Shown: piece after piece, positions 7,550 through 64,000 of the stretch
Layout: each line of letters begins with the position of its first letter
Position numbering within the stretch: position 1 is the stretch's first letter
NCBI GenBank assembly: GCA_001247695.2
Contig: LGRX02025816.1
Location: forward strand, 46,447-110,446
DNA from: Cymbomonas tetramitiformis
Lineage: Eukaryota; Chlorophyta; Pyramimonadophyceae; Pyramimonadales; Pyramimonadaceae
Direction: 5' to 3'
Length of the DNA stretch: 64,000 bases
The notes under the pieces: generated by a model
Databases searched by the model: none
The model's input: only the letters and a program-made list of their open reading frames with translations
Told to the model about the DNA's origin: nothing
Program-made: the position numbers and the translations under genes

Positions 7550-8668
7550 TTACAGAGGGTTAAAATGTCCAGGGACTAAACGCTCGTGGGGATCGACTCC
7601 TTTCCCCACAGAACACTTTTGTATCCGAGAGGCGCTGAACGTTGAGTGTAACTTGGAGGCAGCCGGTCTTTTTGCAGGATTGAAGTCGAAACACGAATTC
7701 ACGAGCATGGTGAGCTGTTTGGAAACTCTACTATCTTCTTTCCAAGGCGAAAATTTTCTGTTGTTGTCAAGCTGGCTGTTAGCCAACTGCAGCATGTCCT
7801 TCCAGGAAAGGCGACTGGCCATGAGTATTTGCATAGCGAGCCCGCCACACGCCCAGATGTCGCTGTGAGTGGTTTTGTTTGCAAATGATGACTCTGGAGC
7901 TGTATGAGAGGGCTGCCATGTTGCGGAAGGCAAGCTTACTGGGGGAAGCGGTGCCATTGAATCGGTGCGGTGGAAACGGGCCAACCCAAAGTCTATGAGT
8001 TTGAGACTGTGTCCACCAACATCGGGCAGATTTTCTTGCACAAGCACGTTGTTACCTTTCAGGTCCCCGTGCACGATTCCCGCGGCATGGAGGTCTGAAA
8101 TGCCGCGAAACAAATCGATGACCAGATGGCGCATCGCCTGGATTGGTATGCCTGATCCGCGGGAAGTAAGGAAATCGGCGAGGGTCTCCCCGCCATATTT
8201 CATGACGAGGAACGCGGAGTGATCAGGACAAATTTGGGCTCCGTATCCTAAACAGGGAACGACGGTTGTGGGAGCCGCGAAATGGGCCACGGTGTTCATA
8301 TACAACTCCACCGCACAGTGCCGCAGGCGACGGTGGAGGGCAGGGTCGGTGAAGTCCTTCAGAACGGCCCTCTCGGTTTTGTCAAGGGTGCAGTGTAGAA
8401 GGACGCTTCCGTAGGAGCCTTGTCCTGTAGCTTGGCTGTCCTGAGGAGCGCGGTACGTGACTACTTGCTGGCGTGAGACTCTTGGCACTCCACACTGTTT
8501 AGCAATTTTGTCAAGATTGCTGAGGCATGCATCCGGATCTCCACTCAGAAACCGTTTTGAAAGGGATTCCACCGATAGGTCGTGATGGAAACCAGGAAAC
8601 TGCAGAGGTGTGTTGAGGTGGTGGTGGGGTGCGGCATGAATATCTTGCGCTGCCGCCTGGGAAAGCAT
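7550..8668 (-). CDS. Serine/threonine protein kinase
   Basis: A 372-codon uninterrupted frame contains a full kinase domain from about residue 80 to 350. It has a glycine loop GQGSYGSV (82-89), ATP-binding Lys in AVLKDF (104), helix-C Glu (121), catalytic loop HGDLKGNN (200-207, His-Gly-Asp instead of His-Arg-Asp), metal site DFG (226-228), an APE-like APES and DIWACGGL of subdomain IX. All core residues for phosphotransfer are present. The HGD form means it is a non-RD kinase, so it probably does not need activation-loop phosphorylation. The N-terminal 80 residues are His/Gln-rich and unrecognised. It lies 221 bp upstream of the 7328 ORF on the same strand and has no intron, unlike the host genes elsewhere in the window. 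Confidence 0.85.
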   Translation of the reverse strand: MLSQAAAQDIHAAPHHHLNTPLQFPGFHHDLSVESLSKRFLSGDPDACLSNLDKIAKQCGVPRVSRQQVVTYRAPQDSQATGQGSYGSVLLHCTLDKTERAVLKDFTDPALHRRLRHCAVELYMNTVAHFAAPTTVVPCLGYGAQICPDHSAFLVMKYGGETLADFLTSRGSGIPIQAMRHLVIDLFRGISDLHAAGIVHGDLKGNNVLVQENLPDVGGHSLKLIDFGLARFHRTDSMAPLPPVSLPSATWQPSHTAPESSFANKTTHSDIWACGGLAMQILMASRLSWKDMLQLANSQLDNNRKFSPWKEDSRVSKQLTMLVNSCFDFNPAKRPAASKLHSTFSASRIQKCSVGKGVDPHERLVPGHFNPL

Positions 8669-8876
8669 CGCCTTTCGCTGGCGGTGTGCAAATCGGCGCC
8701 TAGCTGATCTTGAGGAATTTGGATTTGCTTGTGGGTTTGGGTGTGCAAGCTACGGCACAGAGAACACCAAATATACGGTGAGAAACAGTCGGACAACGGA
8801 CCCCCGGACGGAAGAGGGGGTGATGGGCAAGCATGAGGAATGAGACGCAGCTATGAGGGGATGAGGGGAAATGATT

Positions 8877-15937: not shown

Positions 15938-16084
15938 CAGAATAAATTCCTATAGGAGGGGGGTTGGGGAAAAGGCGAGTGTCAAATTGTAAAGTGGCGG
16001 GCGACCGTAATGCAGTTGCGGAGTGAGGAGAAGAAGGGGTCGAACGAAATCAACGAAGTCGAATACGCGGCGGCCAACCCTACA

Positions 16085-20480: not shown

Positions 20481-20654
20481 GCACTTTCGCATTTTCCCTT
20501 CAATTTCAACAAATGCAACAATCTTGATTATTGCTAATTAATTACAAATGGTCATCACAAATCACAATGGTCAAATGGGGGCAAGGCCATAAGAAGATGT
20601 TGCGTCCGAACGGCACGAACACCGGACCGAAGACGCTCAAGTGTCACGAAGGCG

Positions 20655-22237
20655 TTGAAAATGCTACAAGCGGGCATCATGAGCGTGCTAGCGTCTTGGG
20701 ATAGAGACGAGGGCTACTCGAAAAACATGCTTGAAGACTTGATCGGGCAGTTGACGGTCATAACGAGAGAGCTCACTTCGGAGCTTGTAGACTGTAAGGT
20801 ACGGAAGACATCTGGAAGACATCCCGAATACGTTCCGAGTACATTCCAAACGTCTTCCTTAATTACCTTTTATTTGGTGATTTTGCAGGATGTTCCTAAG
20901 CTTCAAAATCTGGTGGATGAGTTCTTCAAGTCACTCGAGCGCGATGGCTCACCTGACTGGCTGGTCATCAACACGCATTTGCTTTCCCACTTCCCCGACC
21001 AACTCCTCATGTATGGTCCAATACGGGGGACATGGATGTACGTGTTCGAATCATTCAACGGGAAGATTCGAAGGTGGGTGAAGAACAATGCATATCCGGT
21101 TCAGAGTGTTATGCAAGGCTTCGGGCGGTACCGGATGGTACATGTGGTGCGAGGGTTAATCTTGGTACTTCGTCGCCGGCGGGAGGCAACCACCAATCCC
21201 ACCCGGCCACCCGTGCTCCGGTTCTTGACCACCGCACCGTTGAGGGCGCCGAACACCGTGGTTTTGGGAACACAAGGCAAGCGCCATGTACTCTCCCGCG
21301 CTGAAACGAAAGCGCTGGAGCTGTGGATGCATGGCAACGTGCCCCAATACCGCAAGTTGAAGGCAAAATTCGACGAGTACGTCACCTACTGCAAGAGGTA
21401 AGTAAGAAATGAAATGTGCCATAAAGTGCCTGGAAGACGTTTCATATATCTTCTAGGCATCTTCCACACGTCTTCGGTAAATACATGTCCTGACACTGTG
21501 CACGTATACATTCGCAGGGAAAACCATATGGTTCGGAGACGTATTGGCGCACATGCCGGAGGGTCTCGCCTGATGCATATGCACGGTAGCGACCCCAAGG
21601 TCTGGCTGGGGAGACCATTCACGGAGAGTGAAGCGGCACTCGTCGAAGGGCCTCCTCGCGTGTGTCAATCTTTCGGCTCGGTCGTGGTTCGAGGAGTTTG
21701 CTACGTCGCACGGCAGCTCAGGACAAGACGAAGAAGACTTGTCAACGTTACTTCCGAGCCTTTTTCTCTGGAGAAACATCAAAGGCCCGAGGAAATCGAG
21801 ACTGACCGGTGCGTCCGTGCATTACGTTTTGGTGAATGTGCGCAGAATATGTACCGAATGTCTTCTGCGTGTCTTCTCGACGTCTTCGGGGATTCTTACT
21901 ATAGAGTATTGTGGCTCCAACTCGCAGGTACGCCATGGTAGATAGCATCCACAAGGTCGACTTGGCCGCGAAAGAGTACATTCTTGTGAAGGGAAAGTGG
22001 TTCCCTGAATTCAACCAAGCGACGACAAAACGGTTTGCCAAGCTAAACTCGAAGTACGGGCCGGACAATACCGCAAAGGTGGTGTACACATACGACCCGG
22101 ATGATCCCGAGACACCTTGGGACACTACTGATCCGTTTATCCTGGCGGCTCAAATTGAGCACCAAGTTGTAATCAAGAAACATCCTGTGATGAAGACGGC
22201 GGTGGTATTTGATTTTTTTCGAGTGCATCGACGATGA
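20655..22237 (+). CDS. CACTA-2 DUF4218/DUF4216 protein, five exons
   Basis: Exons 20655-20798, 20889-21397, 21518-21808 and 21928-22237 join with matching phases; coding probably also extends upstream of 20655. Exon 2 holds DUF4218 (LLSHFPDQLLMYGPIRGTWM) and exon 4 holds DUF4216 (VDSIHKVDLAAKEYILVKG). The first intron is at the same protein position and phase as intron 3 of CACTA-1 (after SELVDCK here, after SIDPE there), showing common descent. All three introns contain GAAGAC/GTCTTC motifs of this element instead of the CACTA-1 motif. Without tnp2 the protein is unlikely to cut DNA by itself. Confidence 0.75.
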
Positions 22238-36790: not shown

Positions 36791-39313
36791 TGGCTACTGC
36801 CCCGTGGTTCGGTACTATCTCAAGTACCGAAGCTTATCATCATGTAGGCCATGCTATCAGGTTATATGGTCTAAATGGCATCGTAGAAAAATCATTTAGG
36901 ACCCATTTGATGTATTGTTTATGGTGGTTTCAACGACAACCGCCACTTTGCATGTGGAAACATGCCATGCTTTCGAGGGGTGCAATGCCTGAAAATTAAT
37001 TGTTTTGCTCGGTACTATCTCAAGTACCGAACACGCGGAGGCCCATTAGGCTTAGTAGGCGGTCATCCCAAGTCTTATACATCGGCATGTTTCTTCATTG
37101 GGACCTAATCTAAATGTTTGTTGCACATTATGCCACTAGAAGGTCAGCATGGCCTCCGCACCTACGCGTGTTAGCTCCACCCATGGGAAAATTCGAATTT
37201 CCCCCAAATTTCACGCTTGACTTTTTGGTAAACGGCCGTATGCCATCGTGCACAATGATCTGAAATCTCAATATATAGTGCACTTCAAGGTCTCCAAAAA
37301 TCGATATGTATGTATGCTTGAATATTCTATATGTGGGCAGCCTATATTCGTATCCTCTTGACCTCGCCGTACGATTCTCGCATCCCCACCGTGGCTTCCT
37401 TTAAAAACAAAATACACCCTCCAAGTGCAAACTCGAACCCAAACTCAAACGCTTGTAATTCCCTCAATTTTGAGAGTTGTCTGAGCTATAATCAAGTAAT
37501 ATATCATGATTATATGTCACACATGACATTTGAAAGATCACAGGGCATCTACATGACTCTCGTATGCTTTTTTGGCACGGCATAGCATTTTCCCGACATA
37601 ATCAGGGTGCCCCCGACAAAAAAAAATGAAAAAAATGAAAATCAGATTGGCGCTCACAAATAACGGTAAAAACCCATCATAGGACTCCATTTAGTTCATA
37701 TGTAACACTCGGCATGCGGAACATGTCCACATAATGCGAATGTTCGCTATGCGTACGTACCGCAGTACACAGTCAACCAGTCCCTGGCACCCTCCGAACC
37801 TCACAGATACACCTAGGACATCGCTCCTGATGCGTGCAATGCTCGTCGTAGTCTATAATATTATTACGAAACACATCAAAGCGATACACGACGCTAGGTC
37901 ACCCATAGGGACGATCGCTCGCATACTAGTTGTGTACGCGTACTAATGATGTGTCTGCTAGGCTCCGGCACCCTCCGAACCTCGAACATGCACCTAGGAC
38001 ATCGCTTCCCATGCGTTTGATGTTTGTCGTAGTCTATAATATCACTATGAAACGCATCAGAACGATACACGACGCTTGGTCACCCATATGGGCGATCGCT
38101 CGCATACTAGTTATGTATGCGTACTAATGCTTTGTCTGCTAGGCTCTGGCGCCCCCCGAACCTCAAACATGCACCTAGGACATCGCTTCCCATGCGTTTG
38201 ATGGTTGTCGTAGTCTATAATATCATTATGAAACACATCAAAGCGATATACGACGCTTGGTCACCCATACGGACGATCGCTCGCATACTAGTTGTGTATG
38301 CGTACTAATGCTCTGTTTGCTAGGCTCTGGTACCCTCCGGACCTCAAACATGAATCTAGGGCATCACTTCCGATGCGTTTGATGTTTGTCGTAGTCTATA
38401 ATATCATTGTGAAACACGTCAAAGCGATATATGATGTCAGGTCACCCGTAGGGACGCTCGCTCGCATACTAGTTGTGTACGCGTAGTGTTGATGTTGCTC
38501 TGTCTGCTAGGCTCTGACACCCTCCGAACCTCAAACATGCACCTAGGACATCGCTTCCGATACGTTTGATGTTTGTCGTAGTCTATAATAGCATTACGAA
38601 ACACGCTAGAGCGATATACGACGCTAGGTCACCCATAGGGACGATCGCTCGCATACTAGTTATGTACACGTACTAATGTTATGTGCGCCATGCCCTAACG
38701 CCTCTCTCGTTTTAAAATGTGTACCTCGGGCATTGTTCGTGGTGCGTTGGATGCGTTTCATAGTCCAGGATGTGGTGTGTAACGAAAAGCATGCGATATA
38801 TGATTGGAGGGCATCCGTAAGGATGATCGATGGTGTACTATGGGTGTGCCCGCCGATTAGCTAGATAGCTAGGTAGGTCGTTACATACATGTAGGGCGGT
38901 GGATCATTCGCACGTATATACAACGAATGTCATTATGCCAACCGGCCCATGGCCGCATGTACCATTGGCTATGACATATATCTTCAATCTGATTCATTGC
39001 CGAGCTGGTTTGGTTCCCAAATCCGCTTCAAAAAAATCGAAAGGAGCGCCATCTTTTTGAACGGCAAGTGAGAACCACCATGTATCCAAAAGTACTACCC
39101 ATGTGGCAATCTGCATCCATTGGGAACGCTACACGTGATATATTGACCAATGGCGCATAAGGCAACTCAGTTTGGGTCCCTGAGGCAACAATATATAAAG
39201 GGTAGCATCCACATATCAAAGGAGGGCATCGAAAAAAAATCCGGCGTTTCGGTACTTGAGATAGTACCGAAACGCGTTTCGGTACTATCTCAAGTACTGT
39301 GGGGCAGTAGCCA
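36791..39313. mobile_element. 2.5-kb TIR element carrying a satellite array
   Basis: The left end TGGCTACTGCCCC (36791) is matched by its complement ending at 39313, with CGAA on both outer sides (36787-36790, 39314-39317), a possible 4-bp duplication. Near each end lies the palindrome TTCGGTACT-atctc-AAGTACCGAA (36808, 37011, 39248, 39275). No transposase frame is present, and the centre is a 181-bp tandem repeat. The superfamily is not clear. Confidence 0.7.
37700..38860. repeat. 181-bp tandem satellite, five to six units
   Basis: The marker GTCTATAATA recurs at 37851, 38032, 38213, 38394 and 38581, giving spacings of 181, 181, 181 and 187; a diverged unit follows to about 38860. Frames of 60-70 codons repeat with the array and are not genes. 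Confidence 0.95.
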
Positions 39314-39318
39314 CGAAA

Positions 39319-42182
39319 TTAAGGAATCCTCGATCTCAGCCGCGGAGTCTCCAGAGCCCGGCGCCTCGTCCTCGGACGAGTACGGCGGCGGTGAGTAAGG
39401 CGGTGAAGAGGGAATTGGTGGATCAGGATCCACGAGCTCTGGCGGTAGCGGGAGAAAGCCGTAGAAGCGGAATCCCTGTCGTAGCTCTCGATACCGCGTC
39501 TGTCTCCGCGGCGGTATAGCATCCGACACTGCACCACCCACTGCGTCGCCCAGCACGCCACGGAAAGGCGCAGGCGGTGCGAAGTTGCCGCAGTCGGGAC
39601 TGCCGAGGCAGTCCACGCAGCACCACCGACCGGTGGAGCCGCGCATGCGCGTGCATCGGCACCACCGACACCGGAAGCGGCGTGTGGTGCGGCGGCAGCA
39701 CAAATTACGAAGAGTGCACACACCAAAGAGGAAGTGAGGAAAGACCTCCCCAAGCCGGGAATGCCCCCCCCACAGCCGTACCGTGGCCGCGGCAGCGCAA
39801 CCGAGGCATCTTCGTCGCCGTCGTCGCTTGCCGCGCAGGCTCCGGGCTCGTAGCTCATCACGCTCTCCGGCGCCTCGATCGCGGAGAGCATGTTCATGCT
39901 CACGGGCGGCTCGTCGGGCGCCCCCAATGCAATTCCCGTGCTCTCAATGAAGTCCCCAAAGGTGCAGGTGACGGGCGGGCAAAAGGGGTTAGGCGGACCG
40001 GTCCACTCCCCGTCGGATCCAACCGACGCGGGCGGGGAGCGCGCAGCCGGCCCCGACACCACCGGCATGCTGGCGGTGAAAGTGTTGACGTTGAAAGTCG
40101 ATGCCCCAGCCGTGCGTGCCAACTCCGAGAACTCAGTGACGGCGGACACGAGGGCCTCACCGCTCTCCTCGCAGAATGAGCACGCGGAGAGGTCGGCGAA
40201 GATGTCCGGCTTCCCGCCCGCGAGCATGCAGAGGGCGTCGAACTCCATGGCGTCGTCGTGGTCGATACAGTAGGTCGCGGTCTATAAGAAATGGTATCTA
40301 CAAGAAACCAACCGCTAGTTTTCTCTCCAAAAGTTAGAAAAAACGGTAAGAAATCACCCGCTAGATTTTCCATGGGAGAGGTCTTGAAAATTCTCCGATT
40401 AAGAAAAAACTGACGCTAGACGGATTCATCAACCTAGTCAGTATATATATAGTCCAAACATATAGGGTTTGTTTATCAATCATATAGGGCTTATTTGACA
40501 GTTAACAGTGTTCATCCACCGCAGTAATCGTCCGCCATACCATGCATCCCACGGGTGGCCGAATTACAAATGTGGAGAATAAAGTATCAGCCCGGCTCGG
40601 CAGATAAGAAACCAATGCTGAGATCCAAACTACCTGTCATCTCATGTCGAAATTAAGAAAAACTCGACGCTATGCGTGACAAATATGGCATCATCCAATA
40701 AGAAATTCGCGACGCTAGAGACGAGAATCTGGGACCGTCAGATTAAGCGACCAGCGCTAGCGAAATTTTTACTTTTTCTTATAGACCGCGACTTACTGTA
40801 GCATGCTGAAACTTGGCCGCCAACACCGAGTTCTCGGCCTCCTCAGCGAACGCGTAAGCCGAAACACCGCTCCTGCCCCCGTTCGGGCAGTCGCGGTGCC
40901 AATGCCACGCCTTCCCCTTCGCGCACACTTGGTTTTGGCAGTAGGGGACGGTCGCACCGGTGTCGCGATGGAAGGCCACCTTTTTGGAGATCGATTACGA
41001 CCAATTACCGCCCCTGGGAAGGGGGTCGGCCGCGAACCTGGTCTTCATGCGTCGGTCCTGCTTGTCAGCGCGGGGAGTAAACCCGCGCGGGGACGGCTCG
41101 GACCGTTCGGAGGCGACTAACGCAGCCAATTGCCTTTTCAAGTCCAAGACCATGGTGCGCAAGTCGGCGAGCTCACCCGGACCATCGGAGCTGTCGCCGC
41201 TCTCCTCCATGAAATGCGTCCCATGCGAATACCTGTGGGCAGACGCAGTGGCGGTTCCCGCCTTCACGTGGGCGGCGTAGCATTCACGCACCCATTGCTG
41301 GATGGTGAGAAGGTCATGACCGGCCCGTTGATCGTGGAGAAGTAGACGGGACACCACCGGCTGGTAGGAGACGGTGTCCAGCGCCTTGATGAAGAGGGCC
41401 TTGACGTCTTCGTCCAGGAGTGTGGCCCTCGTCCTCGCAGCCTTCAACGCGGCGTTGAAATCCCCGATCGCGTCATGGGGGTCCACGCCCGCAGAAATAC
41501 GAATGCCCAACATGTCTGCCTGTCCCTGAAAGGGGTCACCCGCCGGGATCATGCGGCGGGCAAACTCAAGCAGGACACGCTTACCGTCGCGGACGGGAAG
41601 CTGGAGTGCGAGGAGTCCATCCAATCCGCCGCGGGTGACATGGGGTCAACCATCAGCTCGAGCGTGGAGAACAACAAGCCGTTGGCCTCCACGCGGACGG
41701 GCAGGGTAGCATCGTCCAGCAGGAAAAGGGGTGCAAAGCCAATGTCCTCCGTGACAAATGCCGCCTGCAGCGCAGAAACCAGCCTGGTGAATAGCGCCGA
41801 AGCGTGGCACTCAGTCCCGGAAAATCGCCCGTTCTTGTCCTCGAACAAACCTTTGACGAACGGACTTGGACACTTTCATGTCGAAGTGCTCCCTTTGAAG
41901 GGTACGCACCGAGGCCAGGAACGTAGCTTCTGCTAAATTGGCAGCCGGTTGTGCTGCCGGCGGCGTGGCTGGAGTGTTCGCGTGCCTCGCAGCCTCTAAA
42001 TCAAAAATCGTAGATAATGCCCGTCGGCGATTCGCCATGTTAGCGGTGGCTCGAGCGGAAGCAACCATGATGAAAAGGACTGAAGGGGCGGAGTGAGGCA
42101 ATGAAACGCGAGAGATGTGGCAGTCGTGGGCGGCCAAGAAACGTGCGGGTCGCCGATACAACAACCGTGAGAGATCAAACAA
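39319..42182 (-). pseudogene. Degraded gag of element B
   Basis: Pieces of a Gag related to 13541-15937 lie in order on the minus strand: about 42182-41811, 41848-41549, 41624-40995, 40979-40800 and 40266-39319. The segment VRDGKRVLLEFARRMIPAGD matches the DGKRALLEITKRLLPPG region of gag A. A Cys/His cluster (CQNQVCAKGKAWHWHRDC) sits where gag A has its zinc knuckle, with altered spacing. Frame changes occur near 41830 and 41600, and a mariner MITE splits it at 40268-40798. A hydrophobic segment (FLTSSLVCALFVICAAAA) lies near the C-terminus, as in gag A. Confidence 0.7.
40268..40798. mobile_element. Tc1/mariner-type MITE, 531 bp, TA duplication
   Basis: Ends CAGTARGTCGCGGTC and complement are bordered by TA at 40266-40267 and 40799-40800, the Tc1/mariner signature. 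The interior has no coding capacity and repeats the word TAAGAAA...CGCTAG several times. Without the insert and one TA, the flanking gag segments are in the same frame. Confidence 0.9.
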
Positions 42183-45498: not shown

Positions 45499-46165
45499 AT
45501 GTACCGATATGGCATATGATAGTGCCATGCGTGTCGTATCCCATCGTATTGGTATCATGGCTGCACTTTCTGAAAATTGGTTTTTGCTCATTTTAATTGC
45601 AAATAACATCCAAATCTCGTCTAACCGACATCATAGATCGATTCCCCATACGTCTAAGCCCCTAGGAACATACTGATATGGCATATGATAGTGTCGTGTG
45701 ATGGATCCCGACACATGGGTATTCTGTCTGCACTTTCTGAAAATTGGTTTTTGCTCATTTTCATGCGAATAGCATCCAAATCTCGTCCAATTGACATCAT
45801 AGATCGATTTTTCATACTACTAAACCACTAGGAACATACTTATATGGCATATGATGGTGTCGTGTGTTGGATCCCGACACATGGGTATTCTGTCTGCACT
45901 TTCTGAAAACTGATTTTTGCTCATTTTTATGCAAATGACATCCAAATCTCGTCCAACCGACATCATAGATCGATTCCCCATACGTTTAAACCCCTCGGAA
46001 CATACTTGTATGGCATATGATAGTGACGTGTGTCGGAACCCGGCACATGGGTATTCTGTCTGCACTTTCTGAAAATTGGTTTTTTTTCTCATTTTGATGC
46101 GAATAGCATCCAAATCTCGTCAAACTGACATCATAGATCGATTCCCCATACGTCTAAACCCCTTA
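45499..46165. repeat. 166-169-bp tandem repeat, four units
   Basis: The marker ATATGGCATATGATAG recurs at 45507, 45676, 45842 and 46008. Confidence 0.9.
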
Positions 46166-48009: not shown

Positions 48010-48390
48010 GATCACGGGGAAGCCGATTCCCCCCCCACCGTATGGGGGCCTGCTTCTCCTTGTTTCACCCCTCGCCTTGAGTGCCTGTCATCTTGTCATC
48101 TGTCACCGCTCCGACCGTTCCGCACCGCTCTCGATAAAACACCTAAGTATTTTATCTTATGCAGTTTTTAGACCGACCGGATCACCACCTGTGTTTCCTG
48201 TGTTTCAGCGATATATATCCCTTATATATATATATATCACTCCTTTCGCATCATGTGACACATAACATCCAGTTATATTAACCAAAGCTCGGCTTAAGCC
48301 GGAAACCCTAGCCTGACACCCGTACTGTACAGAGTACTAGTACATATATAGGATTGTGACACGCACGGAGTGTCACATCCAGCGATAAAC
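48010..48390. repeat. LTR remnants
   Basis: 48020-48150 resembles parts of the gypsy LTR at 56166-56560 (GTTTCACCCCTYGCC, GCTCCGACCGTTCCGCACC). 48260-48385 ends GTGTCACATCCAGC, like the LTR edges of elements A and B, with CTATATATG as a possible minus-strand TATA box. No coding content. Confidence 0.5.
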
Positions 48391-56165: not shown

Positions 56166-56771
56166 TGACTTGGTCGTTCCCCCATTGTATGGGGGGGTCC
56201 AGCTCCTCCTAGTTTCACCCCTTGCCCTGAGTGGCCCTGTCATCTTGTTTGTCATCTATCATCTGCTTGATGAAGAAAGAGATATATATGAATATATATA
56301 TATGTAACTGCAGGGGCGGAAACGGACTACGTTCGGGCTTCCGGTAGTGTGCTAAGGTGAAGATAATAAAATACTGGGTGTTTTATTATCGCAGAGAACG
56401 GCGGAAAGCTGACTGCCTACGTGGCACCTCAAGGCGAGGGGTGACAGAAGAGGATCCACAACTCCGCCCAGTATGGAGTGAAGTTGGGATTCCCATCACT
56501 GCTATCGCTCCGACCGACCGACCGTTCCGCACCCGGCACCCGATAAATGTCGCGAACTTATGCACGAAGCGTCCACACAAAGCACAACTCTCTAGCCCTA
56601 CTACTAGACAGTCTTACTTATTGTCAGCGCTTCCACAACACTAGCTCGGCTTTGCATATGTTTCCTTATATGACTGCACAGTTGGCTTGCTACTGTAACT
56701 ATACAAAATCTCAAAATTTTTTATATCTCTTTATCTCTTCTCACAACTTATGCAAGCTCTTTTTCTCAACA
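56166..56771 (-). repeat. 3' LTR of the gypsy element
   Basis: On the minus strand a purine tract (CAGATGGGGGA, 56782-56772) is followed at once by TGTTGAG, a typical PPT-LTR border 24 bp after the last stop codon. The LTR runs to about TCA at 56166 (TG...CA ends). A TATA-like run TATATATATTCATATATATC lies at about 56288-56308 and a transcribed R/U5-like region beyond it. The far end is estimated, because the 5' LTR is outside the window. Confidence 0.65.
56288..56308 (-). promoter_or_regulatory. TATA-like element in the gypsy LTR
   Basis: An alternating TA-rich run in the LTR, suitably placed for a minus-strand RNA polymerase II promoter. No other element was identified. Confidence 0.4.
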
Positions 56772-56806
56772 TCCCCCATCTGTAGCTGCCACTGGTAGCA
56801 CAGACA

Positions 56807-57562
56807 TTAGACAAGAGCTTGCTCAGCATCTTCTGTCGTAACGCCATCCATTGCGAACTTGCCCATGCTGAAGGTAAACATACCCACTCCAGAGGCTTCT
56901 CCTCCTCGCAACATCCTGGCCCTTGTCAAAGGATTGCGAAACACCATGACCCACATGCATCTTCTGCCAATAGGTCCATGCTCCAAGTGCCCAATCACAT
57001 GTAAGCGTCCAGCGTGACACAGCTTACGAAAGTATTGTGCCCTGCTTTCTGTCATATCTGTCATGTAGTGCGATGGCACATGAATACAAGCCACCACTCG
57101 ACTGGCCAGTACTGCCAATGGCAACGCAATATCCAGCACTGCGAACCAGGGTGAGGTCACCACCGCGTCACACACCCCATACTTCTCCTTCCAGGCTCGA
57201 TAATTGCCCGGTTGTAAAGCATTGAGGGCTTCGTGCCATTTCAACTGCGGGTTCCAATCATTGTTCATAACCTTCAGGTGAGGCCATTCCAGCGACATAC
57301 CCTTGCCAATGACACCTGTGCCAGCCCAAGGATCCCATACCTGTGTGATCTTCTCCCAAGTCACCTCGTGCGCCAAACGTCTGACCTCCTGAGGAACTGT
57401 CATCACCAACTCTAAGCCCCAATCCAGTTGACTGGCAATCTTCACCTGAGCTCTGCTCAACGTTGCGTCACATCTCCTCTCTTCTGTACTTCCTCGGGGC
57501 TCATGGCTTGCACTGTGGATGCCTTGCGGAGACTTCTCGCGCGAGTGTGCTGCTCTGCACAC
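56807..57562 (-). CDS. SAM-dependent methyltransferase-like domain at the pol C-terminus
   Basis: From about residue 35 of this frame the sequence is a Rossmann methyltransferase. Motif I is VWDPWAGTGVIGKG (SAM binding, D77), an acidic strand end follows in VMNNDWNP, and motif IV is DAVVTSPWF (136-140), resembling the (D/N/S)PP(Y/W/F) motif of amino-methyltransferases acting on adenine or cytosine N4. Further downstream are HVPSHYMTDM and HGPIGRRCMWVMVF. It follows the PHD finger and a linker in the same transcript and ends 24 bp before the polypurine tract. The upstream 34 codons of this frame are probably out of phase with the true linker. The substrate is unknown; N6-adenine methylation is a reasonable but unproven idea. 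Confidence 0.65.
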   Translation of the reverse strand: MCRAAHSREKSPQGIHSASHEPRGSTEERRCDATLSRAQVKIASQLDWGLELVMTVPQEVRRLAHEVTWEKITQVWDPWAGTGVIGKGMSLEWPHLKVMNNDWNPQLKWHEALNALQPGNYRAWKEKYGVCDAVVTSPWFAVLDIALPLAVLASRVVACIHVPSHYMTDMTESRAQYFRKLCHAGRLHVIGHLEHGPIGRRCMWVMVFRNPLTRARMLRGGEASGVGMFTFSMGKFAMDGVTTEDAEQALV

Positions 57563-57930
57563 TTCCTGCTCAAGATGGTACGATGGCCCTCATGCCAGAA
57601 TCCTGGCATCACTTCTGTGATCACTCTGCTGAGCTCCTCCTGGTTTCCCCAGGCCACTCTGTCAGGAAGATCCCCCATGCTCCCTTCTTTTCTGAGCATC
57701 TGCCGCGATGTCAGCGCCTGCCATGGGTCTTCACGTCCCGGCCTCACTGCACGATGTGGACCCACGTCTGCAGGCAACAATACCACATCTGAGCCCAGCT
57801 TCTCTCTCAGCTGCAGCTCCATGGCAGCCATCTTGTCGACGATCGACGCGCTCACCTCGGCGGCAGCTGCCACCACGGTCCCACCTAAGCACTTGGGACA
57901 TTGCCAATCAATCCCCTTCAGGTACTCCAT
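57457..57930 (-). CDS. End of PHD finger and linker (displaced frame)
   Basis: This frame supplies the last two zinc ligands of the PHD finger (DWQCPKCLGG) that the preceding frame lacks, followed by an Ala-rich helix and a linker (QLREKLGSDVVLLPADVG...LSRVITEVMPGFWHEG). It is separated from the integrase frame by a GATT duplication near 57922-57929 that creates TGA. A further shift near 57480 is needed to reach the methyltransferase-like domain. Confidence 0.65.
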   Translation of the reverse strand: MEYLKGIDWQCPKCLGGTVVAAAAEVSASIVDKMAAMELQLREKLGSDVVLLPADVGPHRAVRPGREDPWQALTSRQMLRKEGSMGDLPDRVAWGNQEELSRVITEVMPGFWHEGHRTILSRKCAEQHTRARSLRKASTVQAMSPEEVQKRGDVTQR

Positions 57931-60007
57931 CCAGCGCTGGATTCAGACACCACGTGTGATAACCACGGTTACAGGTGTCACACAGCAACATGGCTGCCTC
58001 CCCATCTGTCCGCATGCACGCCTCACACGCGAGATGCTTGCTGGGGATGGCTGCACTGCAGTCGTACTGATCTTTCACTTGTAGGTGACATGGTGCAATA
58101 TTTTGCACTGTGCTCTTCTCCCGCAGCTTCGTGCTGTCCTCCAACACTACCACCCCATCTCTTTGCACCTTGACTATCTTTAGGATGGCTGGCTTGGTGG
58201 CCACCTCCATGCCAGAGCGCGGTTGTTGTCGTATATATACGAAATCGCCTGCCTTGAACTGGTGCGGCTTCGGCTCGTAGCTGCCACTCCTCCTGTGCTC
58301 GTACCGTAAAGTGTCGCGGTGCTGAGCGATCTCCAGGTTGCACCCTGCATGTACCATGAGCCTCTTCACGATGGCGGCTCGCTGTAACAGATCATCAGCC
58401 AGTGTCTTCTCCTCCTGCTTCCCAAAGTCCAACTCGGGTCGAGCACGAAGATCCGGTGGCACCGTGGCTTCCTGAGCGAACAGCAAGGTGAATGGCGCCA
58501 CTCCAGTGGACTGCTGCCTAGCTGCGTTGTAGCTGAGTACGAGTGACCAGAGCATCTCATCCCACTCGAAGTCCAGGCCCTTGTCGAGGGCCATCTTCTT
58601 GAAGCAAAACTTGAGGGTGCGTACCACCCGTTCAGTCAAGCCATTGCTCTCTGGGGAACTCGGTGAAGTCACTCTTCGGTCAATGAGACACTGCTTGCAT
58701 AGAGCAGAGAACTCACCTTCAAACTCTGTGCCCCCATCCACCAAACATTCTGCAGGCGCCCCAAACACGGATAGAACATGATAGCGAAATGCGCTGGCGA
58801 TGGTGGCGGCCTCCTTATCGGGGATTGGAACACACACGACGAATCGCGTATAGTGCTCAATCATGACCAAGACGCGTTGGTTCCCAGCCTTCGTGATGCG
58901 TTTCGTAGGCCAAGCTAAATCCAGGGACCAGCGGTACATGAAGGACTTGATTTCCAGCGGCGTGAGACTCGCCTCCTCCCGTGCATAGTGCGTCTTCACC
59001 CTCTGGCAAGTCTGGCACTGAGTGACCACTGCTCGCACATCCTGTTTCATGCCTGCCCAGTAATGGCGTTGCCACAACAGGTTCAGTGTCCGCCTGATGC
59101 CCCAATGGCCGGTCCTCTCATGGTGCTCACGCACCAGCTGAATCCTGTCACAGGGCTTGGGCACCAGCAGCTCCTTACCACTGACGGTGACCATGTATAA
59201 CTCGCCCATGAGCTCGTCCCAACGGTGACGCGCTGCTCTCTTCCTCACCCTGTGGTACTCCTCCTTGGGCACCTCCACTCTTCCTCCGGTCTTGACCCAC
59301 GCGAGGCATAGCTCGTCCTCGTGTATATCGGGGTATCTTTCTCGGAGTGACTCCTGGTTGGTTACGCTGGCTAGCATGGCAACCATTCTCGTAGTGTCAG
59401 GCAGCTTAGGCAGCCTCATCTCTTTCTCCTTTGCCACTGGTGCCCATTCTGGGGCTGAGCTCGTCTCTGCTGGCTTGCCTCCAGGTCTTGAAAAGGCCTG
59501 CCGGTGACGTGCCTCATAGCCCGCGAGCTTCATGGAGGCCATCTTCCACTGTCTGCGACGTGGAACAGCGTCGGCGGTGCCTAGCCCCTGTGTACCTTTC
59601 TGCCCCTGGCTGCACATGCGTTGCAGTCGTTCTTCCCAGTCCTGATGGCTGAGGCGTCGCGCGACTTGCTGGGTGTAGCCGCTGGAACTGGTGATCCACT
59701 CTGCTAGTTGTGCACGCACCGGCTCAGCCGTGTCCTCGGAGGTGGCAGCCACCTTGGTGGATTTCGCGATAGGGATGGCAACTAGCGTGCCATGCTCCTC
59801 CTCCTCACTCTCCTCACTCTTCGGCAGTTTGGTCGTGCTGACCTCGGCAATCGCATACAATAGCTCCATTGCTCTTCGATCCATGGCGAGGCCAAGCACT
59901 CCTGCCAATTCTTCGTCCTTCATGCCATGCGCCGCGCGCAGCTCACCCGCGCTGTACCCCATGGCAACTGCCTTCTCGTCCAGGTTAACCTCTCTGGTCT
60001 CCCCCAC
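57908..60007 (-). CDS. Integrase with C-terminal PHD finger
   Basis: The 699-codon frame begins acidic and has a retroviral-type integrase. A zinc site with His at 295-301 and C331/C334 (HHERTGHWG...CQTCQ) leads to catalytic Asp 363 (SLDLAWP), Asp 424 (CLVDGGTEFEG) and Glu 459 (SNGLTERVV), spaced as in D,D-35-E. An SH3-like segment follows (FKAGDFVYIRQQP...VVLEDSTKLR). Where many gypsy integrases have a chromodomain, a PHD finger starts at residue 661 (CEACMRTDG...LLCDTCNRGYHTWCLNP). PHD fingers read histone H3 tails, so it probably guides insertion. The frame stops at a GATT duplication inside the finger, before the last Cys pair. Confidence 0.9.
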   Translation of the reverse strand: MGETREVNLDEKAVAMGYSAGELRAAHGMKDEELAGVLGLAMDRRAMELLYAIAEVSTTKLPKSEESEEEEHGTLVAIPIAKSTKVAATSEDTAEPVRAQLAEWITSSSGYTQQVARRLSHQDWEERLQRMCSQGQKGTQGLGTADAVPRRRQWKMASMKLAGYEARHRQAFSRPGGKPAETSSAPEWAPVAKEKEMRLPKLPDTTRMVAMLASVTNQESLRERYPDIHEDELCLAWVKTGGRVEVPKEEYHRVRKRAARHRWDELMGELYMVTVSGKELLVPKPCDRIQLVREHHERTGHWGIRRTLNLLWQRHYWAGMKQDVRAVVTQCQTCQRVKTHYAREEASLTPLEIKSFMYRWSLDLAWPTKRITKAGNQRVLVMIEHYTRFVVCVPIPDKEAATIASAFRYHVLSVFGAPAECLVDGGTEFEGEFSALCKQCLIDRRVTSPSSPESNGLTERVVRTLKFCFKKMALDKGLDFEWDEMLWSLVLSYNAARQQSTGVAPFTLLFAQEATVPPDLRARPELDFGKQEEKTLADDLLQRAAIVKRLMVHAGCNLEIAQHRDTLRYEHRRSGSYEPKPHQFKAGDFVYIRQQPRSGMEVATKPAILKIVKVQRDGVVVLEDSTKLREKSTVQNIAPCHLQVKDQYDCSAAIPSKHLACEACMRTDGEAAMLLCDTCNRGYHTWCLNPALDGVPEGD

Positions 60008-60023
60008 TTCATCATCATCTCCT

Positions 60024-61220
60024 TTATTTCCTTACCACTGTGCCTGCGCGAGGCGCGCGAAAAGCACTAGAGTTTTGCGTCGCCAAGATGGTTGGCAATA
60101 CACTCATAGGCTCCCCCACAACGTTGGCGGTGTAGTGAGGCTTCCTGTCTCCTGTGACAACCCTGCGCGGCTTCCAGCCTCGCTGCAAAATATCGCGCAC
60201 GTATCTGTCTGGTGGTCTGTCCACCCGCTCCATCACCAGATCGAACTGCTGATTTTGAAACAGATTGCTCCAATATGCTCGTAGGCGATGCGCGTATGAT
60301 CCCGCGCGCGCCGCGTCAAAGGACACCGGCTGGCCCACCACGCTGTTGATGATGGGAAACACCTCCTTCCTGATCTTCGAGTTCTCCCTGTGTGACAACG
60401 GAGAAACGTTTTCTAGCACATATGCTGGCGGTCTCTGAGGCTGCAGCTGTTGCAGCGTGGAGAGGACTCGCACTGCCTGGTAGAACAGTCTGCTGTGCCT
60501 GCCCTCCAGACCAGCCAGCTTGCCAGCTGGTGACAGGTCCTGGCATGGATATCCACACACCATGACCCACTGCTCTCCACTCAATGCCCCTGCATGTACA
60601 AGGTCAATGAGGCTGGTGTCTTCGATGTTGCTGGGCAGTTGCTCCAAGTGGGCTGCCTCGGCACGGAACAAGTCAGGATGACGGCGGCTGAGCGCCATGC
60701 ACCTGGCCCTGGCTACCGTCTGGCTGGACTTCGAGATGTCCTGGTAGAGGTACTTGTTGACCTTAACTCCGCAGCGCAAGAGCATCTCTAGTCCAGCACA
60801 CAGGCCCCCACACGGCTCGTAGCAGACCACGCCCTCTTCCCTGGCTTCCCGGAAGAAGCTCTTGTCAATCACTCTCGTGTCGATCTTCTTCGGCACTTTG
60901 AGCTTGCCACCCTCCATGGTCTCGTCGCCGTATATCGCCGGTGAGCCTCCGGAATGCATACCCCTGATTGGCCGGACCTGGCTGAGGGCATCCCAGGCGA
61001 CTCGAGTCAACCTGCCCGAGCACCTGGCCACTTCCGGGTGGTCAGTGTCAAACATGACCCCCTTGTTACACTCCAGCTCTTCTTGGTAGTGCAAGTCAAA
61101 CAGTCGATGGACTGCGCTGGTCCCAGCTGCTCCCTGACCATGTTCTCGCAGTAGTTGGCCACCTGGGCTTCTGGGCTTACTTCGGGACCAAGTGGTGGCT
61201 CCCTGGTCACTTCCAAGCAA
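60024..61220 (-). CDS. DNMT3/DRM-type cytosine-5 DNA methyltransferase domain of the retrotransposon
   Basis: Coding sense begins near 61100 (FDLHYQEELECNKGVMFDTD); the first ~39 codons to 61220 are out of phase with the RNase H frame that runs into them. Motif I is YEPCGGLCAGLEML (134-147). Motif IV is GYPCQDLSPAGK with catalytic Cys 226, then GRHSRLFYQ. Motif VI is YVLENVSPLSH with Glu 270. SYAHRLRAYWSNLF (309-321) carries the R-x-R motif. The GxPCQDLS and AHRLRAYWSNL patterns are closer to DNMT3/DRM than DNMT1. All key catalytic residues are present, so it could methylate cytosine. The target-recognition region is short. The frame ends at TAA (60024), and integrase resumes in another frame. 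Confidence 0.9.
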   Translation of the reverse strand: MLGSDQGATTWSRSKPRSPGGQLLREHGQGAAGTSAVHRLFDLHYQEELECNKGVMFDTDHPEVARCSGRLTRVAWDALSQVRPIRGMHSGGSPAIYGDETMEGGKLKVPKKIDTRVIDKSFFREAREEGVVCYEPCGGLCAGLEMLLRCGVKVNKYLYQDISKSSQTVARARCMALSRRHPDLFRAEAAHLEQLPSNIEDTSLIDLVHAGALSGEQWVMVCGYPCQDLSPAGKLAGLEGRHSRLFYQAVRVLSTLQQLQPQRPPAYVLENVSPLSHRENSKIRKEVFPIINSVVGQPVSFDAARAGSYAHRLRAYWSNLFQNQQFDLVMERVDRPPDRYVRDILQRGWKPRRVVTGDRKPHYTANVVGEPMSVLPTILATQNSSAFRAPRAGTVVRK

Positions 61221-64000
61221 ATGATGTCTGTGAAGCAGCGCGTTGGCCTCTCGGCACGCCCCGCTTCCCTGGCTCGGTCCCCTTCACGGTCCAAACGGGC
61301 ACCAGTCTCGTCTGCGGTGCTGGGCAGTGGGTACCTGGATGGCACATCCGCGTTCTCATTCTTCGGACCTGGTCGGTACTGGACCGTGAACTCAAACTCC
61401 TGGAGGCTGATGGCCCAGCGTAGGTGTTGACCCTGCAGGTCCCCCTTCTCCATGAGTGTTGTGAGCGGCGAATGGTCGGTAATCAGCGTGAAGTGGATCC
61501 CGTGCAGGTACTGTCGTAATGTGCGGATTGCCCACACCACTGCCAGCATCTCACCCTGGAAGCTCGCGTACTGTCTCTCGGTCTTCGACAGCGAGCGGCT
61601 GATCACCACACAGATGTGCTCTACGCCATTCTCGTCCTTCTGACCCAGCACTGCGCCAATGCCATGGTTGCTCCAGTCCGTGTAGAGGAAGATGGGCTTG
61701 CTGTAATCAATGGGCTTCAAACATCTCCCCGAACATAGGGCGTCCTTCAATGCCTGCAATGCCTGGTCCTGATCCTTCCCCCAAGCTTCCTTGACATCCA
61801 ACACTTCCTTTCTGAGCAAGTCGTTCAATGGTCGTGCCATCTCTGAGTAGTTGGGTCCCATGGGTTCCCCCACCAGACCTTTGTAATAGTTCATGAGTCC
61901 AAGGATGGAGCGTACTCCAGTTTTATCCTCGGGCTTGGGCAGCTCTTGGATGGCCTTGCACTTGATGTCCTGCGCGCCAATGGTGTTATAGCCGATGCGG
62001 TAGCCCAAGAAGTCCACCGTGGCTGACCCGAAGGTCGACTTGCCCGAATGCAGACGTATCCCTGCATCCCCCAAAGTGCGAAGCACGGCTTCCACATCCT
62101 TGATGTGCTGCTCAGCGGTGTCTGAGTATATGCACACGTCATCGACGTACGCCACCGTGCAGTGTTGCAGGTGACGTAACTCGTAGTCCATGATCCTGAT
62201 GAAGGCTGCGGTCGCTCCAGCTGCTCCAAACGGCATGGATGTGTAGCGATAAAGCTGGTTGCCCCACCAGAACGCTGTCTTGTCCCTGTCCTCCTCAGTG
62301 GTCATGGGAATCTGGTGGAACGCCTTGGTCGCGTCCAGGGTAGTCTTGAACTTGGCCTTGGCCACGCGCTGGTAGAGCTCTTCTGGACGATGTGGTAACG
62401 TGTTATCCTTCAGCGACAACCGGTTCGTATTCCGGAGGTCGACGCAGAATCTCGTCGAGGTCCACTGTCCAGTGTCGTGATCCTTCTTCCCCGCGACCAC
62501 CACGTTGCTGGCGTGTCTGCAGTGCTGCGAAGCCGGCTCGATGAAGCCATATTCCAGCAGTTCCTTGCAGTGCAGGTCGATGATCTCCTGCTCTCCCGGG
62601 CTGTATTTCCTCGGTCGTTGGTAAGCTACCTTAGTCTCGTCCTTGAAAGGGATGGCGAAGGTCGCATGTGCCGCGCCCCCATGGTAGCCTTTGATGTCCT
62701 GCGGCTTGTTGGCGAAGCAGTAGCTGCACCTCCTTACCACGTTGCGCATCTCCTCCCAATTCTCCTCGGTGAACTCGGGATGTCCTCCAAAGGTGGCATT
62801 GAGCTCGGTGTCCAGCCACGCGGCCTCGTCCTTGGTGACCCTGGTCGTGCCCCCTGGCTGTAACGTGTCCAGCACCGTGTGCGGAAGCACCTCGTCTCGC
62901 TCTGCCACCATAGCCTCCCATCCGGTGTCCCATTGGCGCGAAGACCTCTGGTCTTCCCAGGCGGTCCTGACAGATCTGGTCGGCGAGCCCGAGCATGATC
63001 CCATCGTCAGCACGCCCTGAAACTCCCCAGGGGCCACAGCGGCCACCCAAGCAGCCACCGCTAGCAGCAGCAAAAGTTTTAAAATTCTGCTGGTACCCAC
63101 TGGTTTAACTGGAGGGTGAAGGGTCAGTATGCAAGTCAACATCCTCCACCCCCCTTGCATACGGCCCAGGCCTCCTCCCGCAGACACGTAGACCACCAGC
63201 GCCAAGACTGATGCCACATAGATACAGTGCGCCACCTGGTAGCAAGCGGCTGTGAACTGCAGGCGCTGCAGTCGGGCGGCAAAGCGCGGCTTCTGCATGC
63301 GCCGAGGAACAGCGGCCAGCGTAGCCGGCCCTGCGGCCAAGATTCGCTGGGCGACCGCCAGCGCACGACCTATCTGAGTCTCTAGCGTGGCGAACGCGCC
63401 ACCATTGTAAATCAAGCAGGAGCATGGCAACCCATGGTGGATAACGTGGGCGCCAACTGTCAAGACGCACCCCAGAGTGCCGACCACGTGCGTGAAGTGC
63501 ATGGCGAGCATGGCGAGACAGAACCGTAGCAATGGCACGTACCACAGCCCACGCCGGGCATGGTGGAGCCCAGCTACCTCAAGGGCCCCCTTGGTCAACA
63601 ACAGTAGGTGCCTAGCCAGCTCCAACAGCACTCGCAGAGGCGCCTGTTGATGTGCCCATGGTTCGAGTGGTGCTGTGTGCATGGCCCACAATGCGCGTGC
63701 CATGGCTCTGCGGGGCACCCCAGTGTGGAATGCCCAGCAGGCGACGCCCCCACCAAGAAATCTGGATACCTCCATAGCCATCCATACTGCCATTACTGCA
63801 AAATGAGGCAGCTGCGGCCAATGCAAGCGCACGAACACCCCCACGAGCAGGAAGCACACCTGAGTGCGCTTCGCCCGCCTATCATTGGCGGGCTGCGTGC
63901 CCGGCTTTGCGCCGGGGCTGCTTCTCAGTGACGGGCGCGCCGGGCTGCAGCTGGCCCGGTGCCCCCTTGAAAAGGCCCCAGTGCGCTCTCCCTTCTCCTC
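61007..64000 (-). CDS. Membrane segment block - reverse transcriptase - RNase H (5' open)
   Basis: The frame stays open to the window edge, so residue numbers count from the codon at 63859. Residues 1-280 contain about six hydrophobic stretches (for example FAVMAVWMAMEVS, LLRFCLAMLAMHF, IYVASVLALVVYVSAG, LKLLLLLAVAAWVAAVA). RT follows at about 345-640, with catalytic D509 (TLDATKAF) and YVDD (571-574). RNase H follows with D728, E770, D795 and D838. The RT class is Ty3/gypsy. A protease is not visible and should lie upstream. Membrane segments directly before RT are unusual. After about 61105 this frame becomes a shadow of the methyltransferase frame, one base back. Confidence 0.9.
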   Translation of the reverse strand, partial: EEKGERTGAFSRGHRASCSPARPSLRSSPGAKPGTQPANDRRAKRTQVCFLLVGVFVRLHWPQLPHFAVMAVWMAMEVSRFLGGGVACWAFHTGVPRRAMARALWAMHTAPLEPWAHQQAPLRVLLELARHLLLLTKGALEVAGLHHARRGLWYVPLLRFCLAMLAMHFTHVVGTLGCVLTVGAHVIHHGLPCSCLIYNGGAFATLETQIGRALAVAQRILAAGPATLAAVPRRMQKPRFAARLQRLQFTAACYQVAHCIYVASVLALVVYVSAGGGLGRMQGGWRMLTCILTLHPPVKPVGTSRILKLLLLLAVAAWVAAVAPGEFQGVLTMGSCSGSPTRSVRTAWEDQRSSRQWDTGWEAMVAERDEVLPHTVLDTLQPGGTTRVTKDEAAWLDTELNATFGGHPEFTEENWEEMRNVVRRCSYCFANKPQDIKGYHGGAAHATFAIPFKDETKVAYQRPRKYSPGEQEIIDLHCKELLEYGFIEPASQHCRHASNVVVAGKKDHDTGQWTSTRFCVDLRNTNRLSLKDNTLPHRPEELYQRVAKAKFKTTLDATKAFHQIPMTTEEDRDKTAFWWGNQLYRYTSMPFGAAGATAAFIRIMDYELRHLQHCTVAYVDDVCIYSDTAEQHIKDVEAVLRTLGDAGIRLHSGKSTFGSATVDFLGYRIGYNTIGAQDIKCKAIQELPKPEDKTGVRSILGLMNYYKGLVGEPMGPNYSEMARPLNDLLRKEVLDVKEAWGKDQDQALQALKDALCSGRCLKPIDYSKPIFLYTDWSNHGIGAVLGQKDENGVEHICVVISRSLSKTERQYASFQGEMLAVVWAIRTLRQYLHGIHFTLITDHSPLTTLMEKGDLQGQHLRWAISLQEFEFTVQYRPGPKNENADVPSRYPLPSTADETGARLDREGDRAREAGRAERPTRCFTDIICLEVTREPPLGPEVSPEAQVANYCENMVREQLGPAQSIDCLTCTTKKSWSVTRGSCLTLTTRKWPGARAG

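Follow-up and report, generated by a model that had tools for sequence, protein, structure and literature searches.

In the window, by which we mean the whole 64,000-nucleotide stretch of Cymbomonas tetramitiformis DNA that was analysed, the minus strand carries in order a reverse transcriptase (RT), an RNase H, a DNMT3-type C5 methyltransferase and an integrase, followed by a PHD finger and another methyltransferase-like domain of class I (named MT2 here); after these come a purine tract and an LTR-like stretch of 469 bp (Table 1). The protein modules had been listed on this strand in the earlier note, and the list was borne out by Pfam matches and, for the last frame, which matched no Pfam family, by the motifs DPWAGTG and TSPWF. 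The succession of RT, RNase H and integrase (H2C2 finger and DDE core) that marks Ty3/Gypsy elements is found here, though across broken frames. We read the locus as an LTR retrotransposon of Ty3/Gypsy type whose copy here has decayed, with proposed roles for its PHD finger, C5 and MT2 domains, and we give this reading a probability of roughly 60%.

Table 1. Features of the element in the window, in minus-strand order.
Feature	Position	Strand	Evidence and remarks
Reverse transcriptase, YVDD present	61991..62602	-	P0001 residues 467-670; own profile 6e-114; RVT_1 6.9e-22
RNase H domain	61322..61708	-	P0001 residues 765-893; RT_RNaseH 1.1e-32
Frame break 1, RT/RNase H frame overlaps C5 frame	61007..61283	-	between RNase H and C5
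DNMT3-type C5, motifs I to IX (GYPCQDLS, LENVS, AHRLR)	60033..60881	-	P0002 residues 135-417; DNA_methylase 1.3e-10; PDB DNMT3A 2.8e-5
Frame break 2	60024..60031	-	interrupts C5 between motifs IX and X
C5 motif X part	59837..59995	-	P0003 residues 13-65; own profile 3e-31
Integrase, H2C2 zinc finger and DDE core	58475..59155	-	P0003 residues 293-519; Integrase_H2C2 7.1e-17; rve 2.2e-07
Integrase C-terminal domain	58070..58315	-	P0003 residues 573-654; own profile 3e-40
PHD finger, interrupted by frame break 3	57889..58030	-	P0003 residues 668-707; PHD 2.3e-07; last Cys pair (WQCPKC) in next frame (P0004)
Frame break 3	57908-57942	-	frames overlap within PHD finger
PHD end and linker to MT2	57457..57942	-	P0004; includes frame break 4
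Frame break 4	57457-57589	-	ahead of MT2
MT2, DPWAGTG and TSPWF	56900..57418	-	P0005 residues 58-230; own profile 4e-93; structure model and fold matches
Candidate polypurine tract, GATGGGGGA	56772..56780	-
Candidate 3' LTR, 469 bp, TGTTGAG...GTTACA	56303..56771	-	one LTR in window; partner would fall outside

The reading frame shifts at four sites in this copy, two of them inside domains (C5 and the PHD finger), which gives no support to the earlier view of the locus as one transcription unit, if a working one is meant. Relatives (189 proteins) were gathered by protein searches seeded with the element's own modules: RNase H and C5 are joined across the first break in single proteins P0046, P0059, P0068 and P0189, the second break is read through by P0040, P0041 and P0110, and the PHD finger and MT2 lie within single proteins in P0006, P0014 and P0016. 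As relatives read through all four junctions, either the window copy is broken or its assembly contains indel errors. At the 3' end, the MT2 frame stops at 56807, 35 bp short of the LTR-like stretch, in which TATAAA is found at 56725 and AATAAA at 56387. The proposal that the element reaches 56166 was rejected, as the LTR-like stretch ends at 56303. Beyond the candidate LTR, positions 56179-56248 resemble 48032-48096. The 5' part of the element lies beyond the window; zinc knuckle and protease motifs, tried for gag and protease in three frames of 62500-64000, gave no match, and the element runs on past the window. No second copy was seen within the window, as the five window proteins match only themselves, and scans of viral_contigs for DNA copies returned 5 pattern matches with P0002 and 17 with the MT2 alignment, none of which was confirmed.

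In the integrase, the rve match reached 31.5 bits, under the cut-off of 32.6, and acidic positions are present near residues 369, 430 and 464 of P0003. In 90 of 104 cases a PHD finger comes after the C-terminus of the integrase, and its C4HC3 ligands are complete in 83 of the 98 stretches found by profile. Chromoviruses are Gypsy elements bearing a chromodomain at the integrase C-terminus; the window element likewise has a chromatin reader there, but uses a PHD finger, and it is not classed among them, as P0003 showed no match to a chromodomain at E up to 0.1. The PHD finger may occupy the place of the chromovirus chromodomain, from where it would steer insertion via histone H3, the predicted ligand, judged by the nearest solved relatives of the finger, being most likely H3 unmodified at K4. 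A comparable arrangement is found in Ginger1-9_HM from Hydra, whose Gypsy-like integrase/transposase has a PHD among its C-terminal domains, but which is described as a DNA transposon with an Ulp1 protease domain and not as an LTR element (PMC2836005).

The structure model of MT2 (positions 56810-57460; pLDDT 75.9) is Rossmann-like, motif I following strand 1 and motif IV following strand 4, and shows a class I methyltransferase fold, one that the modelled domain shares with amino-methyltransferases such as M.TaqI and METTL5. Motif IV of N6-adenine/N4-cytosine amino-methyltransferases is usually (D/N/S)PP(Y/F/W), as in NPPY or SPPF. Among 43 aligned MT2 rows, the motif reads SPWF in 30 (window included), SPPF in three and SPHF in one, one row ends after SPW, and the remaining eight are other or gapped; as SPWF mostly stands in place of the usual NPPY or SPPF, the activity of MT2 is only putative. 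The domain may methylate an exocyclic amino group, adenine being the first guess, or may retain a binding role only. Its substrate could also be RNA, e.g., the element's own transcript, and not DNA, an alternative that we regard as possible rather than probable. Weak matches to D12, an adenine-specific family of DNA methyltransferases, below the cut-off, in the divergent members P0173 (0.0015) and P0171 (0.0055) speak for DNA, as does the description of Dam-like DNA methylases in DIRS elements (PMC5890265, PMC6338049), but neither point is decisive. Those DIRS elements resemble the window element in bearing an adenine-type methyltransferase domain in a retrotransposon, but they are of the tyrosine-recombinase type, and MT2 gave no match to the Pfam Dam families at E up to 1 among the 21 members scanned.

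The C5 domain has a DNMT3-like fold, with DNMT3A and DNMT3B as the closest solved fold and sequence, ahead of bacterial or DRM enzymes. The enzyme had previously been called DNMT3/DRM-like; the first half of that assignment stands, but the second was rejected, since the motif order is linear (I-IV-VI-VIII-X) and the rearranged order described for DRM enzymes (PMC5890265) is absent. A C5 enzyme in Gypsy Pol is already known, and the precedent suggested in the earlier note holds: KnitGypsy-Dnmt3 from the green-lineage alga Klebsormidium nitens (de Mendoza et al. 2018, PMC5890265) likewise carries a Dnmt3-type C5 domain without DRM rearrangement in its Gypsy Pol ORF, and SymbioDIRS-Dnmt3 and SymbioLINE-Dnmt from Symbiodinium also encode C5 enzymes, but belong to dinoflagellate DIRS and LINE elements described as independent captures (PMC5890265). 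KnitGypsy-Dnmt3 differs from the window element in its DIRS-like repeat structure and charophyte host; moreover, the main text of the paper does not contain 'PHD', and its abstract and sections 6, 9, 10 and 11 name no second methyltransferase in the element, though its figures (Fig. 4c) may show more. The two elements are set apart here by description and not by sequence. In yeast, the SymbioDIRS enzymes were reported to methylate CG, whereas the Klebsormidium Gypsy domain gave no methylation, a result that is inconclusive because human DNMT3B failed as well (PMC5890265). A Klebsormidium label was found in none of the 32, 58 and 101 proteins listed, many rows of which have no organism label, and a C5-carrying Gypsy-type relative is labelled Chromochloris zofingiensis in one record. 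For the whole plan of C5, PHD and MT2 in Gypsy Pol, no report was found among the matches listed from the open-access PMC literature, subscription journals, Repbase and preprints being outside the scope of that search.

Within the element, C5 would methylate CpG either on newly made cDNA or at the site of insertion. Among 28 scorable integrases, C5 is present with 21 and absent with 7. Copies lacking modules had been named beforehand as an outcome that would speak against a single element, and this came true for C5 alone; its absence points to an optional module and not to unrelated insertions. That C5 is dispensable over evolution also agrees with a proposed role in self-limitation, as opposed to camouflage or cDNA protection: new copies would arrive methylated and be silenced, the cost to the host would be lowered and the element would persist. 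Self-limitation is discussed along with cDNA protection in PMC5890265, where CHH/CHG methylation is described on silent TE copies, including KnitGypsy-Dnmt3. However, both ideas predict an identical sequence pattern, and we hold self-limitation as a tentative and somewhat doubtful account of the domain.

It is rather improbable that C5 and MT2 are both relics of enzymes, kept as nucleic-acid-binding or scaffold parts. The prevalence of SPWF in MT2 fits such a loss, as do the altered motif IV letters of some C5 rows (e.g., GWECQDLS or GPECKDFS), but these C5 variants keep the Cys, SPWF is itself conserved, and SPPF survives in the three MT2 relatives mentioned above. Overall, the catalytic Cys is kept in 40 of 42 C5 rows, and 45 of 47 retain the Glu of motif VI, as counted in aligned columns, which were used in place of regular-expression motif counts because the latter miss many truncated rows.

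The relatives also bear on whether the modules belong together. At least two kinds of module are present in 144 of the 189 proteins, and 142 of these 144, from Cymbomonas and from divergent metagenome proteins, have them in the same order as the window. Several modules stand in window order within one predicted protein in P0110 and P0149 (in the latter, C5 was not called by Pfam), and three relatives combine C5 and integrase with PHD and with MT2 in whole or in part. MT2 is partial in all three of these four-module proteins, and in one of them, P0121, C5 consists of motif X only and the PHD match is a short piece. Moreover, integrase and C5 diverge together among relatives. In permutations, which treat related rows as exchangeable, the integrase C-terminus and C5 showed a weak signal in divergent rows alone (r 0.31, n 9, 36/999), and the integrase core and MT2 showed no significant co-divergence (r 0.22, n 9, 153/999), with three weak MT2 rows (P0146, P0184 and P0187). 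Strong MT2 rows co-diverge significantly with the integrase C-terminus plus PHD (n 22, 0/999), and the corresponding values were r 0.35 and 2/999 in divergent rows only (n 19) and 358/999 in Cymbomonas-like rows only (n 3). A comparison of domain order across copies had been set in advance as a check on the single-element reading, which came through it; that unrelated insertions or host genes merely abut a Gypsy element is hardly credible, given the shared order, the single proteins that span the junctions, the joint divergence of integrase and C5 and the short distance from the MT2 stop to the candidate LTR, even though frame breaks divide the modules in the window copy, P0085 and P0115 differ in order (2/144) and C5 is missing from some related elements.

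Taking the locus as one decayed Gypsy copy, a broader proposal can be put forward, namely that a green-lineage Gypsy clade combines a chromatin reader with a double DNA writer, in which PHD would read H3K4me0, C5 would write 5mC and the SPWF-type MT2 would write 6mA on cDNA or target; we consider this proposal unlikely as it stands. DNMT3 enzymes couple their C5 domain with an ADD finger reading H3K4me0. DNMT3A and DNMT3B are host enzymes with the finger ahead of C5, whereas the PHD of the window element comes after the integrase. If the proposal is true, a polyprotein with a reader and two writers would rebuild the read-and-write logic of DNMT3A-ADD in one protein. In the 2018 paper, Gypsy elements with C5 were described from a single charophyte; they are now found in a chlorophyte and in many metagenome sources, where C5 is tied to PHD and MT2 in a fixed order. 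Because C5 is present in some related elements and absent from others, what a retrotransposon gains from methylating DNA becomes testable, as does whether a PHD finger borne by the integrase directs insertions to a particular state of chromatin.

The element lies at the right end of the window in five overlapping minus-strand frames, which matched the Pfam families RVT_1, DNA_methylase, Integrase_H2C2, rve and PHD and two RNase H models, while its second, class I methyltransferase-like domain (MT2) matched no Pfam family. The YVDD motif and the H2C2 finger were found, as were the acidic positions expected in an integrase core, and the C5 methyltransferase domain (C5) is of the DNMT3 type, its motifs being given their customary numbers. 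By its Pol the element is classed as Gypsy-type, with a single candidate LTR in the window, starting 35 bp past the MT2 frame stop after a purine tract; its partner falls beyond the window edge. Chromovirus identity was rejected on the chromodomain test. In the window portion no gag or protease was recognised: a long frame upstream of RT had no Pfam match, and simple motif patterns for both also found nothing there.

Features of the element and of the remaining window
Feature	Position	Strand	Content
P0001	64000-61007	-	RT, RNase H
P0002	61283-60024	-	C5 motifs I to IX
P0003	60031-57908	-	C5 motif X, integrase, PHD start
P0004	57942-57457	-	PHD end, linker
P0005	57589-56807	-	MT2; frame stop at 56807
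Purine tract	between MT2 stop and candidate LTR	-	GATGGGGGA
Candidate LTR	56771-56303	-	469 bp, TGTTGAG...GTTACA, with TATAAA and AATAAA
Stretch just beyond candidate LTR	56179-56248		83% alike over about 70 bp to 48032-48096, 8 kb off
DUF4218	1644-2597	+	4.4e-10
DUF4218	20538-21398	+	7.1e-06, just below cut-off
Isochorismatase domain	6031-6921	-	2.3e-13; neighbour of kinase frame
Protein kinase domain	7553-8749	-	1e-27
Gag-like frame	13541-15949	-	802 residues
tRNA-Thr (ARAGORN)	14258-14334		within frame 13541-15949
Shorter gag-like frame	40995-41645	-	
Tandem array	37784-38678		181-bp unit, 4.9 copies
Tandem array	45502-46163		166-bp unit, 4.0 copies

Elsewhere in the window, DUF4218 is a domain of plant-type DNA transposons, and the two gag-like frames, without Pfam match, are similar by eye and resemble the gag of another retroelement.

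The earlier note had described one minus-strand unit with intact motifs. Strand, domains and catalytic motifs held, but four frame changes interrupt the copy, all at junctions that related proteins read through: RNase H to C5 (P0046, P0059, P0068, P0189), C5 motif IX to X (P0040, P0041, P0110), PHD (P0014, P0016, P0110) and PHD to MT2 (P0006, P0014, P0016). This points to a window copy that is broken, or to an assembly with indel errors, despite the presence of the catalytic motifs.

That the modules belong to one element, a test set by the earlier note, was borne out by their order in relatives. Eight module profiles, six from the window (RT; RNase H, RH; C5; its motif X, C5X; integrase core, INT; integrase C-terminus, INTC) and two from relatives (PHD from P0016, MT2 from P0006), were scanned over 194 proteins. 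Five of these are window proteins, and the other 189 came from three database searches for which MT2, C5 and the integrase-PHD region served as seeds; the seeds set which modules appear, not their order. All 189 relatives had a match, 144 of them to at least two module kinds, and the order RT-RH-C5-C5X-INT-INTC-PHD-MT2 was kept in 142 of these 144, P0085 and P0115 being the sole departures. Among the 189, RNase H and C5 occur together in 19, PHD and MT2 in 38, integrase and C5 or C5X in 28, these plus PHD in 17, and all four in three (P0110, P0121, P0149), with MT2 incomplete in each; in P0121, C5 is represented by motif X alone and the PHD match is a short piece. Adjacent Cymbomonas locus tags, whose contigs are listed at the same length, complete the set at four loci (CYMTET_16085/16086, 15581/15582, 56033/56035 and 55966/55967). 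NCBI and EukProt relatives are gene models, in which exon joining is possible. The model of P0189 (CYMTET_15581) carries ankyrin repeats ahead of RNase H, C5 and integrase, explained either by fusion within the gene model or by capture of a domain.

The distribution of C5 among related elements is patchy. In a rapidly built integrase tree of 75 rows, with 35 of its 72 internal branches open, 28 rows could be scored, 21 with C5, including the window row, and 7 without, that is, with integrase 98 to 214 residues past RNase H and nothing C5-like between; 3 changes, gains and losses counted alike, are enough to account for presence and absence, against a mean of 6.5 in shuffles. Co-divergence with integrase was strongest for C5 among the module pairs (r 0.94, n=11; divergent rows alone, r 0.93, n=7, 1/999 permutations, related rows being treated as exchangeable), and the integrase C-terminus gave r 0.85 with C5 (n=21, 0/999; divergent rows alone, r 0.31, n=9, 36/999). 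PHD co-diverged clearly with integrase (r 0.56, n=60). Relative to C5 and PHD, co-divergence of MT2 was weaker or absent (integrase core, r 0.22, n=9, 153/999; integrase C-terminus plus PHD against strong MT2 rows, r 0.49, n=22, 0/999).

The full ligand set is present in 83 of 98 PHD stretches, and PHD is found in 90 of 104 proteins with an integrase C-terminus, cut-off proteins being scored as lacking it. Among the best 60 of 81 matches, the solved fingers nearest to the P0016 PHD include those of MLL3, CHD4, KMT2D, WSTF, ATXR5, KDM5A, DPF2/3, BAZ2A, PHF21A, UHRF1 and AIRE. Several such fingers recognise histone H3 that carries no modification on K4, and so does the ADD domain of DNMT3A; a parallel between the element's PHD and this ADD domain is an idea suggested by analogy. 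In some related Pols (P0124, P0165, P0170, P0025), a short, basic tail that looks beta-rich by eye follows PHD, perhaps a second chromatin reader; P0170 carries PF21743, which we take to be a Tudor-like domain, and in P0025 a stretch ahead of MT2 resembles this tail by eye.

Cymbomonas tetramitiformis, a chlorophyte of the class Pyramimonadophyceae, supplies the closest MT2 proteins under its CYMTET_ locus tags (at most 86% identity over 96% of the query), and C5 relatives reach 94% identity over 43%. Metagenomes supply many relatives at roughly 35-48% identity; PHD follows the integrase C-terminus in Haematococcus lacustris (P0165, P0168) and the liverwort Calypogeia fissa (P0133), and C5 is present in P0064, whose label 'Chrzof1' we read as Chromochloris zofingiensis. 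The 2015 Cymbomonas genome paper describes three scaffolds at >10,000-fold coverage, taken as repeat-associated, that show homology to a chromodomain, an RNase H and a cytosine DNA methyltransferase (PMC5741210), and LTR elements are given as 15.3% of the 2023 assembly (PMC10675990).

The C5 enzyme has the retrotransposon precedent that had been suspected: a Dnmt3 domain under purifying selection inside the Gypsy Pol ORF of Klebsormidium, reported in 2018 (PMC5890265). In contrast to the Cymbomonas element, 'PHD' is absent from the main text of that paper, which saw no methylation by the Klebsormidium enzyme in yeast, a result it termed inconclusive, while SymbioDIRS-Dnmt3 methylated CG in yeast. 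According to a 2019 opinion paper, which proposes an antiviral role, DIRS and Gypsy elements, including those of green algae, carry methylases of the Dam and Dcm types (PMC6338049). PHD next to a Gypsy-like integrase is described for a DNA transposon, Ginger1-9_HM (PMC2836005). Judged by title, abstract or passages, no report of the whole RT-RH-C5-INT-PHD-MT2 plan was found among the open-access papers that the searches listed; a Dnmt3 domain in Gypsy Pol is known, and the arrangement as a whole is taken as a new variant.

With the anatomy, recurrence and folds of the modules documented, we infer their binding, substrates, timing and benefit as follows. The PHD finger, sitting at the tail of the integrase, would bind histone H3 and in this way let it guide the integration complex. 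From its place after RNase H and before integrase, C5 would come into contact with newly made cDNA or with the target. The part of MT2 would be to deposit a second mark or to bind nucleic acid. For the element, the benefit may be camouflage, protection of cDNA or self-limitation.
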